DNA from: Metallyticus violacea
Lineage: Eukaryota; Arthropoda; Insecta; Mantodea; Metallyticidae
Direction: 5' to 3'
Length of the DNA: 64,000 bases
Assembly (NCBI GenBank): GCA_030762175.1
Contig: CM060842.1
Location: 46,036,001 to 46,100,000 of the forward strand
Positions within the stretch are counted from its first letter, which is position 1; every line of letters starts with the position of its first letter. Shown in pieces: positions 1,427 through 52,570 of this stretch. The position numbers and the translations under genes were made by a program. A model generated the notes under the pieces. That model searched no databases, was not told the DNA's origin, and worked only from the letters and a program-made list of their open reading frames with translations.

Positions 1427-2512
1427 TCAATTACAACACAAATCCATACAGTTTACCATAAAAGAAGAGAGAAATGGATGTCTCCCATTCCTAGAATTAA
1501 AAATAATAAGAATATTAACAGTCAATTATATATTATGTAATTATATATTAAATACAAACAGTCTTAGCTTTGGAATTCACAGGAAACAAACACATGCAGA
1601 AAATTACATAAAAAATTATAGTTATAACCCCATCCCACATAAATATGCAATGCAGTGCTCACAGATTGATCAACATCCCATTGATGGAAACTGAGTACAA
1701 AATGGAATACCAACACATAATGAACGGTTATAACCAACAGTTTCAACATAGACTCAGTAACAAAAATCATCAATAAAGCTAAAAGACAAAAACCGATAAA
1801 GGAAGTTTCCACACGTAAGAACACCGAAGAAAGATATAAATTCTAAAGTTTCACATACCACCCAGCTTACCACAACAAATTTAGGAAGATATTCAAAGAA
1901 CATGGAATAATGTTAGCCCCAAAGAACAAATATAATATAAACAAATTTAGTACATTGCACAATGAAAGATACCATCCCTACAGAGCAAAATCAGGAATAT
2001 ATGAGATTAAATGTGCAGATTGTGAGCAGAGCTACATTGGGAAAACGAAAATAAATTTAGAAATTCGAAGAAAAGAACACTTTAGGAACATTAGATTGAA
2101 ACAGAGAGACAAATCAGCAACAGCAACTCATTTTTGGAACAAAAATCATGAGATAATACTAGAAATGAAATTTATGAAACAACTTCACAACCCAATAGAA
2201 CTATCCATGTAGGAGAGGATTTTCATTTTAAAAAATAGGAAGAACTTAATGAATTTCGATTTTCTGCTGCTGGATGAACTCAGCAAGTTTCTACTGTAAC
2301 CACCACATACCACCACAAGAATGAGCGGGAATCCATCCCCCGTTTCGAACAACGGTATTCAGTCAACAGCAGCCGATGATGGGAGGGACCTCTCCTGAAA
2401 CTAGTCCTAAGTTTTAAGAAGTAAGTGCAGTTAGTGTTAACAACTTGAACACATTAATGCAGGATATACTACCACTCCATTGTCTACAGCTTCTTAAGTA
2501 CAATCTTACTTA
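1427..2512 (+). mobile_element. Penelope-like element, 5'-truncated, RT C-terminus plus GIY-YIG
   Basis: Flanked by an 11-bp TSD ATCATCAATCA (1416-1426 and 2513-2523) inside LINE-A. The 5' end begins inside the RT: SIQFTIKEERNGCLPFLELK, then GIHRKQTHAENYIKN and NPIPHKYA, hallmarks of PLE RTs. A linker with a Y/THP..NKF-like motif follows. The GIY-YIG nuclease then runs from 1910: SGIYEIKCADCEQSYIGKTK, then RRKEHFRNIRLKQRDKSATATHFW, with a stop near 2212. Frameshifts break the RT part. The 3' end has the terminal sequence CGATGATGGGAGGGACC..CCTGAAACTAGTCC and the tail ACCACTCCATTGTCTACAGC, also used by short foldbacks elsewhere in the window. Confidence 0.85.
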
Positions 2513-2523
2513 ATCATCAATCA

Positions 2524-3335
2524 GTGTTTGGTAGCATAAGAAAAAATTAAGGGGAGAGAAACTTGGATATCTAAAATCCAAAAAGAAAGGGAATCAATAT
2601 TGTGTGAGGGGGAAAGAATAGAAAAAAAGGATTTTGGAAAGAGATAAAAACAAGAATTGAGGATATTCAAAAACAGGAAATATGGGCTAATCTTAATGTC
2701 AAACAATCTCTGAAATTATATAGCACACTAAAATGTGTGGAGAAGATATGTTGAAATTTGTGATAAGGCAGGAAGGGAAGGACTGTCATGGTTTAGAACA
2801 GGAGTAATATATTTAAGTGGGATAAAAAATGGATATATTAAGGGGATATATTCTATATGTGAAGAAACAGTACTTGGCATTGTATATTAGAATGTAAGCA
2901 AACTTAATTTTGGAGGGAACAATTCCTTTTATGAAAGTGGGAAAACTTAACAATTGAAATAAGAGGGAGAAAAATTTTAAATCTATAAAATCATAGAAAA
3001 ATATTAAGAAACTTGGAAAATGCATAGGCAAGGTGAGACAAAAAATGTTATGGAAGGAGGGCAAGACAAATGGAAATAACAATGTTGACAATTATACTAT
3101 ATAGGAATATCCCCATTACATACTCAACCTGGTGTTAATTGTAATGGGGTATGGAAGGAATGCAACTCCATAAAGTTAGGGTGATTAATTGATAACTTTA
3201 AATGTTTTACTAGTAGTAAGTGTACAGGTATTGAGAATATGGAAATGTAAATTGTTTACTTTCATTTTAATATGTTTACGAAATATCTGCATGTAAATTA
3301 GAAATAAATAAATTTGTTCATTCATTCATTCAGTA
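2524..3335 (+). mobile_element. LINE-A 3' part, resumed after PLE
   Basis: Continues the LINE cut at 1426. Across stops it reads RIEDIQKQEIWANLNVKQSL, GLSWFRTGVIYLSG and CEETVLG, the ORF2 C-terminus also seen at 25740-26500 and (- strand) 5580-5800 and 11330-11480. The 3' end is non-coding, finishing near AAATAAATAAATTTG and an ATTC-rich run at about 3330, 260 bp before exon a. Confidence 0.65.
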
Positions 3336-3589
3336 GAATCCTGAAAATTAAATAACCATCCTTGTATTTTTATGAACTATCCCTGAGACATTGCAGTGCC
3401 ATTCTGATTTTGCTGTAAGCTTGAAATTACGACCTGCTTAAATTAAATTATCTGTATTGATTTTTTATAAGTTATTTAGTTAGAAGTTACTGATGGAAAA
3501 TATCCCTTCTATTTAATAGATGTTATTGAAATGCATACCTGTAATACAAAAATAATATAAGTATAATATTATTGTTAATTTTCTTACAG

Positions 3590-3793
3590 CAATGGAATTC
3601 CTCCGGAAGTGGTATCAAGGCTTATGTCAGCAGTGAGTTTTGGTTATGGCATTTTCCAGTTGTGCATTTCTCTTTTACCACCTTCCCTGCTCAAGTTGAT
3701 TCACTTTCTGGGCTTTGAAGGGGATCGTCAGATTGGCATCTCTGCTCTCATGTTTGCTAGGCAGGGGCATGATATGCGAGCTCCATTAGCTTC
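3590..3793 (+). CDS. TTC39C: TTC39C exon a (first visible)
   Basis: Acceptor TTCTTACAG ends at 3589. Donor TTC|GTAAGT follows 3793. The first base completes a codon from an upstream exon. The rest reads [15 protein letters not shown] through DMRAPLA, then a TC|T serine split with the next exon (residues 1-68 of the visible protein). The stretch [20 protein letters not shown] followed by FEGDR is a family signature. No stop codon interrupts the frame, in contrast to the decayed transposon ORFs on both sides. Confidence 0.92.
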
Positions 3794-50450: not shown

Positions 50451-50459
50451 GGCATATGA

Positions 50460-51640
50460 AGGTTAAACTTGTAATAATTTAAAAAAGTAAATCTCATTTA
50501 AAATTGAACATAGGGTATAGCTCCAATATTGTTGATGTGCCATCAGCATAGGATGTTACTATGTTTCCCATTAATATGGGAAATTATTTAGTAAACTATA
50601 CATAACAAAAAGCCTAGAGTACTAGCATTTTTGCTTTCTACTTTCCTGCTTCTGGCAGCCCAAAGTCTTTTGAATAACATAAATGTAATACAAAAATAGA
50701 TGATTACAAATTTGAAACTGGTCATAATACACGCTCTGAACATTTGGGTACATGTGATGTAAAAAAGAGAGTTCTTCATTCTATCTTTAATTTTGTATTG
50801 ATATTATTTGAATGTAGTTCAGAAAATGGAACTGATATATTGTAAGTATATGACATATTGTGCTAGTGTCTGTCTATTTTATGAACAAAACACTTTTTAG
50901 TTGGATTTTGCATAAAGCTATGGGAATGAGTTTATTGACATCTAATACTAAAGGTGTATTTGTAAAACTATTTTCATTTCATTCTAGAATGTAAAATGTA
51001 TAATCTAGTTAAACAGTACCTTAATTTTAAGTAACATGGATATAAGACTAGCAAAATTTTGCAAACAGATTAGTACTTTCTGCTGGTGCTTTAAAAGATT
51101 AAAAAAAGCTTACCCTCTTTTAAAGAGAGAAGTAATAATATTATATAAAGATTATTTTGTTAGAGAAAGGATTGTAATTCACAAAATAATTAAGAGAAAT
51201 AAATTACTTAAGACAAATGCAACTGTTATAGGCTGTGACTTATTTTTATTTTTTCAGATATTGTAAACTGTTGTAGTGCTATAGAGTAAATTCTTACCTG
51301 CTGGTTAGATAGTTTTTTATAACAGTGCCAAAGATTTTTTTTATGCTTAAGTTGATTACAGATTTTTTAATCTGGATTTTGTGCAAACATATGCTGATGA
51401 AGAATCTTAATATTTATTACCATAGATTAAAGTAATGAAAGGAGTATCAATTAATTAATAAATTATTTGTAAACTTAATAGATGTTAGAAACAGCGAAAT
51501 TGATTGATTATACATATAAATAAGTCTATATTAGGTGATACTATACATTACAAACTGATTAATTTATCACAATATTCATTTAAGAACTTTCGAAAAATAA
51601 GACATTTTTAAAAAATTCTGTTGGAACTCACGCATTGAAG
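50460..51640. other. Intergenic sequence, nothing recognised
   Basis: Small ORFs at 50588-50779 and 51036-51266 have no motif support. Confidence 0.5.
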
Positions 51641-51649
51641 CTTGTTAAA

Positions 51650-51960
51650 TGTAAATTATAATTAATCTGTCATCTAACACACTCTTATGCTTCACTTACT
51701 TTTAAATACGGTGGGACCGGTTTCGAAGAGACATCCTCTCCATCTTCAACCAACTTGACGACTGGTACGAGAAACTAACATCTATGAGAACCTGTGGCTT
51801 TAAAAAATAAATAAATAAACAAAAAAATGTTAGTTTCTCATGCCAGTCGTCAAGTTGGTTGAAGATGAAGAGGATGTCTCTTCGAAACCAGTCCCACCTT
51901 ATTTAAAAGTAAGTGAAGCATAAGATAATATTAGACGACAGATTAATTATAATTAACATT
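51650..51960. mobile_element. PLE-terminal foldback, about 300 bp
   Basis: Arms TGTAAATTATAATTAATCTG, CTTCACTTACTTTTAAATA, GACCGGTTTCGAAGAGACAT, CCATCTTCAACCAACTTGAC (left) and complements to 51955, with a 60-bp A/T-rich loop. The - strand core is TTGGTTGAAGATGGAGAGGA, TGTCTCTTCGAAACCGGTCC: UUGAAGA replaces CUGAAGA, while stem II and GAAACCGGTC are intact. Confidence 0.75.
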
Positions 51961-52570
51961 TATCACAATATGTTTCAAGAGCTTTTGCTCTCATCTTCAG
52001 CTGGGGTTTGACTAATTCTGGCAGGTGGTTCCAGTATGCAGTAAAATAGGAAGCACATTGGCAGCATGTCAAAATTCATAACATAATGCTTTTTAATTGA
52101 TATCATTGTATGATTAGCTTCACTGTGAAAGTTCGAATTTACATTTTAAATAATGCTTATTGTTTAAAATGAAAATCTCTTCCCATATTATTGCTCCTGG
52201 ATTTGTTTGCAGCTTTTAACAGTTTGGTTTCTTTTGTGATGTCATGATTGAAGTCCAAAAATGATCTGCAACTGCTGATTTAACCACTTGTTTACATCTT
52301 ACATTTCTAGTGTTCTTTCATCCTTGTTTCCAAATTTTTTAATCATGACATCACTAAAGAAACCAAACTGTTGTAGCTACAAATAATCCCAGGGAATTAC
52401 CAATATGGGAAAAGATTTTCATTTTAAAGGATAAGCATGTTATTCATTTTTAATTTTGACGTCCCACCAATGGATTTCCTATTTTGCTATATATTGAAAC
52501 CACTGACAGAGTTAGTCAGTCCCCAGCTGAAGATGAGAGCAAAAGCTCTTGAAACATGATCAGACAAATT
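51961..52570. mobile_element. Palindromic PLE with decayed GIY-YIG arms
   Basis: The left arm (- strand) has a terminus CCCAGCTGAAGATGAGAGCA, AAAGCTCTTGAAACATA and a decayed GIY-YIG C-terminus (KSAVADHFW-like pattern near 52260, WEEIFIL near 52180). The right arm (+ strand, 52330-52565) repeats ATGACATCACTAAAGAAACC and ends CCCAGCTGAAGATGAGAGCA, AAAGCTCTTGAAACATGATC. A tail module (TTGATATCATTGTATGATTA) lies inside at 52097, so the structure is nested or rearranged. Confidence 0.6.

Follow-up and report, generated by a model that had tools for sequence, protein, structure and literature searches.

Short foldbacks of Penelope-like element 3' ends in Metallyticus violacea share two fixed arm ends, one of each per scorable element

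The genome of Metallyticus violacea contains, in one window of 64 kb (contig CM060842.1, positions 46,036,001 to 46,100,000; "the window" means the whole stretch of DNA analyzed here), 19 two-armed foldbacks that are built of the 3' ends of Penelope-like elements (PLEs; Table 1). The arms of these foldbacks are of unequal length and stop at two fixed positions of the PLE sequence, one beyond a tail and one before it, and every foldback that could be scored has one end of each kind. Target-site duplications (TSDs) and empty sites accompany this pattern. In our view, each foldback probably stems from its own insertion of a 5'-truncated PLE by two-sided target-primed reverse transcription (TPRT).

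The positions of the arm ends were measured from a CA(C/T)TGT-like motif, whose variants in M, N, and T were placed by hand. The untailed arm of all ten foldbacks with exact TSDs ends 11-16 nt before this motif (11 nt in B0, 12 in F, H, and I, 13 in B, D, G, and M, 14 in N, and 16 in C), and the tailed arm of eight of them reaches 26-36 nt past the motif start. Most of the element pairs listed are <80% alike. The other two, B0 and M, extend 59 and 62 nt past it and have a longer tail in common. The length of the tail is 40-53 nt in 12 of 14 palindromes, and 70 and 75 nt in B0 and M.

Self-comparison of the window, carried out blind to the tails, found 16 inverted pairs of PLE sequence, which were then scored by alignment and by reading of the sequence. 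All 14 of the scored pairs have one tailed and one untailed arm; the two outside the score are O, a false pairing, and U (57150), which is too decayed. Given equal odds and independent arms, the chance of this outcome is 2 to the minus 14. The foldbacks T, O1, X, Y, and AA agree with the pattern, and lie outside the test because T was found via the sequence of the pseudo-long terminal repeat (LTR; pLTR) of the PLEs and the other four via a tail profile.

Exact TSDs of 11-15 bp border 10 of the 19 foldbacks (B0, B, C, D, F, G, H, I, M, and N), and J, O1, T, X, and Y have partial ones. The first-pass annotation of this DNA had given a constant length of 11-12 bp, which does not hold for M (14) and N (15). 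The ten exact TSDs contain 84% A+T versus 68% for the window, and only 3 of 10,000 random placements were equally high. The repeats at a foldback's own flanks were compared with those of mismatched flanks in three tests. In the first, with windows formed by the outer palindrome ends plus 85 nt, a score of at least 12 was reached by 8 of 19 own pairs versus 3 of 342 cross pairs, one of which scores 64 and has coordinates where the right flank of N overlaps the left flank of Q; H scores only 8, given that its palindrome alignment overran. In the second, with windows set at the untailed end and the tail motif (positions for T, M, and N and the untailed end of H set by hand; O mispaired), the own summed score of 176 for 16 foldbacks is higher than all 20,000 re-pairings, the largest of which gave 151.5. 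In the third, with corrected limits, a score of at least 11 was attained by 11 of 19 own pairs versus 1 of 342 cross pairs. The limits of the third test were fixed after the TSDs had been seen and, therefore, the first two are fairer. Row O in both early tests, as in the alignment of arm ends, used the false pairing, and the control candidates P and Q, in which no PLE tail was seen, stayed in the palindrome-end control. Of the remaining control candidates, S is a tail at 62585 between arms of other origin and R is the decayed PLE foldback U.

The sequences around several foldbacks preserve or imply the site before insertion. The right arm of N is the uninterrupted counterpart of its left half, which holds M and X. 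Removal of M with one copy of its TSD gives a gapless alignment to the other arm of N at the join, and after removal of X with one copy of its repeat the arms of N align with two 2-nt gaps right beside the join. When D is removed with one TSD, a reading frame resembling that of a long interspersed nuclear element (LINE) stays open across the join, with stops in the other two frames; downstream, a reverse-transcriptase match lies under the Pfam cut-off, and the frame adjoining D has no Pfam hit. At B and C, where the flanks were rejoined in the same way, the surrounding LINE-like frames are themselves broken. The earlier claim that the foldbacks are inserted as discrete units with TSDs is upheld by the TSD scores, which beat re-pairing, and by the joins at M, X, and D.

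The seven palindromes on which that claim had been built (B, C, D, F, G, H, and I) are real, with their limits placed correctly and exact direct repeats of 11-12 bp. Their arm identity spans 72-99%, varying with the inclusion of decayed centers. An additional one, J, is likewise a foldback with a near-exact repeat, whose limits are now 46283-46468 and whose repeat is 11/12, instead of a start at 46282 and a repeat of 10/11. The single-armed PLE at 1427-2512 has, by eye, the 11 bp repeat ATCATCAATCA that had been reported, and stands outside the TSD control. B0, T, O1, M, N, X, and Y had not been listed as TSD-bearing foldbacks. In all, 35 inverted pairs at most 4 kb apart were found by self-comparison, and five Markov-simulated windows contained no palindromes at an identical cut-off. 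The pairing of 14140-14261 with 15207-15329 as a single foldback O was false and has been replaced by O1 and the single-armed O2. Rfam microRNA matches in the window, all under the gathering score, were taken as hairpin artefacts.

The origin of the foldbacks from PLE 3' ends, also put forward in the first-pass annotation, is supported by the GIY-YIG domain in A and B and by hammerhead cores. Along the longer arms there follow, in order, a partial GIY-YIG endonuclease, a predicted minimal hammerhead, and the pLTR. When the frames of A, B, and C were scanned, GIY-YIG (Pfam PF01541) was over the cut-off in A and in the left-arm frame of B, and the frame of C gave no Pfam hit. The homologues P0002 and P0003 have PF26215 together with GIY-YIG. 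Among named proteins, those nearest to the PLE protein of the window are hypothetical proteins from the cockroach Diploptera punctata, the best of which shares 53% identity across 79% of the query; three unnamed proteins outscore it, and the viral contigs searched held no relatives.

The hammerhead core pattern has 12 matches in the window versus 0.19 expected, of which two overlap and one is outside the listed elements. In 12 chosen copies, stem II is 94.9% paired and shows a covariation of 0.688, reached by none of 500 shuffles; two of five stem II measures are ordinary (83/500 and 333/500 shuffles), and the register was picked after a first register that was one off. No Rfam hammerhead match was obtained in the window up to E = 1, which is in line with PLE hammerheads being minimal, without helix III (PMC7761336). 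On these sequence features, the pLTR is predicted to contain a minimal type I hammerhead. A direct repeat of the pLTR, as in the tandem pLTR-ORF-pLTR arrangement (ORF, open reading frame), was not found in A or the foldbacks (18 regions searched). All copies are 5'-truncated and, therefore, this absence counts only against a full-length PLE, not against PLE origin.

Two further features of the PLE sequence were observed. The center of B0 (4489-4687) consists of three direct copies with a spacing of 57-58 nt, as if a polymerase had slipped or jumped. The heptamer GTAAGTG is present in many, not all, PLE arms (e.g., 6924-7003 and 2421-2490), and in B, F, I, and M it sits 44-56 nt ahead of the untailed end. 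Many tails have an AG, and the two together resemble a small intron, within which the untailed end would lie.

The extent of the two arms differs widely. The arms of B and C run to hundreds of bases, and in T and O1 a long untailed arm faces a tailed arm that is hardly more than the tail. In the shortest cases, X and Y, an untailed arm appears to be joined to little more than a tail. The segment 52094-52115 of X corresponds to the untailed arm of B in antisense (22/22); the first 30 nt of Y correspond to the untailed arm of K in antisense (29/30), and 60642-60684 to the tailed arm of K in sense (37/43).

According to the two-sided reading, the PLE protein would cut both strands of an A/T-rich target with a stagger of 11-15 nt, and each exposed 3' end would prime copying of the PLE RNA. 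One complementary DNA (cDNA) would begin at a downstream start site and give the tailed arm, and the other would begin 40-53 nt upstream (70-75 nt in one subfamily) and give the untailed arm. Each cDNA would halt independently, after a few nt to hundreds, and the inner ends would be joined and gaps filled. The product would be an inverted pair with the PLE 3' ends outward and the TSD outside. We infer, then, a single event for both arms, arm ends that would be start sites of reverse transcription (RT), and this order of steps and manner of joining. Both strands are cut and extended by the PLE of Anolis carolinensis in vitro, with a preference for A/T-rich DNA, and RT starts from two adjacent internal sites, the interval between them being the genomic tail of 30-40 nt (PMC11167929). 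The two fixed ends in the window fit these two start sites and a reaction that cuts and extends both strands. A version with a leading polymerase on one shared RNA, in which the untailed arm would always be the longer-running one, was rejected, given that the ten foldbacks that can be assigned divide five to each side.

A wider claim can be put forward only tentatively, and we lean slightly away from it: PLE insertion may be inherently two-sided and asymmetric, with one complex making two cDNA starts on one staggered cut, always one per RNA site. Inverted pLTRs would then be the direct footprint of insertion and not a by-product, and a long pLTR-ORF-pLTR copy with an inverted pLTR would be the same event in which one cDNA ran far.

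Several points weigh against the two-sided reading. In the foldbacks with less certain limits (T, E, J, K, and L), the untailed end lies 14, 8, 13, 17, and 6 nt before the motif, which is a wider spread, and the tailed end 32, 36, 40, 29, and 34 nt past its start. Tails in the window exceed the published lengths of 30-40 (PMC11167929) or 31 (PMC3846280). A tailed arm is in part simply a longer one, and an untailed arm a shorter one, so that the force of the pattern rests on the fixed positions. A comparison of own flanks gave no convincing TSD at E, K, L, and AA. For the Anolis PLE no difference in start site was seen between top and bottom strands (PMC11167929), so that the rule of one end of each kind is not predicted from the in vitro behavior; if general, it would imply coupling. 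The segment of X that matches B is nearly palindromic and, therefore, a sense match to the tailed arm of B crosses the junction of X (44/51), so that X may instead consist of one tailed arm only; Y has a weaker match of this kind, in sense to the tailed arm of A (50/64). Finally, the data come from a single window of a single genome.

Inverted PLE copies have been explained in print by self-priming on an antisense template, offered as a hypothesis (Arkhipova et al. 2013; PMC3846280), whereby a strand folds back, is copied, and the resulting hairpin is inserted. This accounts for the palindromic centers and the head-to-head arms. In a single hairpin, the copied arm lies inside the template arm at both ends and, therefore, the loop must extend the tailed arm. 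The central loop was matched to homologues within the window and could be assigned in ten foldbacks (C, D, G, and M gave no assignment; B0, N, AA, X, and Y were outside the comparison). It extends the tailed arm, as a hairpin needs, in F (9/9 bases), H (55/55), L (38/46), I (47/56, 1 opposite), and K (57/62, 10 opposite). In the other five the loop contradicts a hairpin by extending the untailed arm: B (47/209 bases by similarity and the remainder by the open frame), E (14/21), T (100/100), O1 (90/90), and J, which with 22/52 bases and 6 opposite is the weakest and to that extent tells against the two-sided reading as well. Moreover, the tailed arm scarcely goes beyond the tail in T and O1, and in X and Y as read here. 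Self-priming as the sole source is ruled out for B, E, T, and O1, less surely for J, and as a general explanation it is unlikely.

Also unlikely, and a little more so, is a hybrid that departs from the two-sided reading in its second arm: TPRT at the downstream start site would give one arm, and a host repair enzyme would copy the other from PLE RNA or cDNA during second-strand synthesis. Different starting places of the two arms would follow from it, but both ends are equally precise in the ten best cases, and the untailed one matches the inner boundary of the tail, which is an RT start site in vitro (PMC11167929).

The first-pass annotation had seen the foldbacks as families comparable to miniature inverted-repeat transposable elements (MITEs), that is, ready-made units moved by PLE enzymes, and had held that single occurrence of each palindrome would speak against this. 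Their short, discrete, TSD-bearing form suits the idea, but within the window each palindrome does occur once. Searches with junction-spanning pieces of the 19 foldbacks (the junctions of N and AA placed roughly) found no second copy of any center: 16 had no spanning match, T had one weak match outside the listed PLEs, and X and Y match single tailed arms, Y with one more weak match. Arm length and junction vary among foldbacks of one family (E/H; F/I/K/O1), and the arms within B, C, F, and G are 98-99% alike, versus ~90% for the closest distinct elements (A/F, E/H, and O1/O2). We regard movement of ready-made units as very improbable. Equally improbable are two PLE insertions, the second nested in reverse at the 5' end of the first, or an inversion by recombination: PLEs are dense in the window and true nesting occurs (M and X in N), but the TSD encloses the whole pair, the arms of B, C, F, and G are nearly identical, and every scored case has one arm of each kind.

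The foldbacks belong to the known anatomy of PLEs, to which they add the regularity of two fixed ends, one of each. The first-pass annotation knew of no description of such short foldbacks as families, but inverted pLTRs with a one-sided tail and a TSD are the typical Penelope structure (PMC3846280), and inverted pLTRs, an optional single tail, variable TSDs, and palindromic junctions are already on record (PMC3846280; PMC8969392). They are therefore new copies of a described type. The closest parallel is Penelope of Adineta vaga (Pen2a_Av and relatives), in which an inverted pLTR adjoins a direct copy, palindromes occur at inverted junctions, a 31-bp tail is optional on one inverted pLTR, and TSDs, where present, are 8-10 bp (PMC3846280). 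Those elements mostly bear an ORF, whereas the foldbacks in the window are short, down to ~58-88 bp, with TSDs of 11-15 bp, longer tails, and one tail in every scorable case. Poseidon PAc of Anolis carolinensis shares the two RT sites bounding the tail, the A/T-rich targets, and an upstream hammerhead; unlike the present case it concerns work in vitro, and its main text does not use the term TSD and says "inverted" only of a dT block (PMC11167929). Metazoan non-LTR retrozymes are likewise small and non-coding with a type I hammerhead, are possibly mobilized by PLEs, and have TSDs of >4 bp when present (PMC7229834, PMC7761336). Retrozymes consist of multiple direct copies, whereas the foldbacks are inverted and part of the PLE itself; in the 18 regions searched, direct repeats of at least 30 nt were limited to the center of B0 and a weak pair in C. 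Short inverted repeats with TSDs are also a feature of MITEs and foldback DNA transposons (PMC8969392), but the foldbacks in the window differ from them in a TSD of varying length, non-recurring centers, and arms of PLE 3' ends. No report of two-sided priming for inverted copies, or of the one-of-each rule, was recognized in a literature that was judged largely from listings and leaves the early Penelope papers uncovered.

Table 1. PLE-derived elements in the window, with window coordinates
Element	Coordinates	Strand	Description
A	1427..2512	+	single-armed 5'-truncated PLE with tail; 11-bp TSD by eye; GIY-YIG; hammerhead core at 2375
B0	3984..5168		foldback, right arm tailed; TSD AATTACAATTTA; tail 59 nt past motif, compare M 62 nt
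B	5873..7023		foldback, right arm tailed; 451-nt arms 98% complementary; TSD ATCTATACTAAT
B loop	6322-6530		continuation of untailed left arm; GIY-YIG frame spans left arm and loop
C	7392..8318		foldback, tail right; arms ~449 nt, 98%; TSD AATTCTTTCACT
T	13345..13529 (approximate)		long untailed left arm; right arm barely exceeds tail; low-complexity TSD
O1	14144..14319		layout as T; TSD TATGTCAATTATA/TATGTAAATTATA, 12/13
O2	15207..15366 (approximate)	+	tailed PLE 3' end, single-armed
D	19267..19413		147-bp foldback within LINE-like reading frame; tail right; TSD TAAATGACTTAA
E	23905..24159 (approximate)		decayed foldback, tail left; family of H; TSD unconvincing
F	31177..31483		foldback, tail left; TSD AAATTATACAGG
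G	33866..34181		foldback, tail left; TSD CTTGAACTTATT
H	37297..37491		foldback, tail right; TSD TGAGAAATATT
I	39625..39876		foldback, tail right; TSD CAAATTATATT
J	46283..46468		foldback, tail left; TSD 11/12
K	49594..49789 (approximate)		decayed foldback, tail left
AA	49940..50150 (approximate)		decayed foldback; left arm short and tailed; TSD none found
L	50223..50448		decayed foldback, tail right; 8-bp direct repeat ATGGCATA
N	51471..52620		foldback, tail left; 15 bp TSD TAATAAATTATTTGT; M and X in left half
M	51576..51957		foldback within N, tail left; 14 bp TSD ATTTATCACAATAT; empty site is N's other arm
X	52092..52149		58-bp, within N; untailed arm 22-23 nt plus tail; ATAATGCTT at both ends; empty site N's other arm
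Y	60610..60697		88-bp; untailed arm and tail joined; TSD 12/13

Other features were noted in the window. An L-like PLE tail at 62576-62645 (+) has an inverted partner of at most 10 nt and no clear TSD, and may be a very short foldback; this tail, at 62585, was excluded from the 19. A U6 small nuclear RNA match, probably a retro-copy, lies at 63663-63763 (-), with an Rfam score of 75.6 versus a gathering score of 44 and a 6-nt deletion. Open frames at 22213-22838 (-) resemble, by eye, a mariner transposase, and frames at 30616-32542 (+) carry exons of a TTC39-like gene (Pfam Iml2-TPR_39), foldback F lying in the gap between two of them.

The way in which PLEs insert is not settled, and self-priming is the explanation of inverted copies that has been given in print (PMC3846280). 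Very short foldbacks strip this problem to its ends: two fixed sites, one of each per insertion, and arm lengths that are unrelated to each other. Any PLE-rich genome would allow the end pattern to be tallied, and the in vitro system that already exists offers a way to check it. Should the two-sided reading hold, PLEs would be retroelements in which copying from both sides of a single break is routine.

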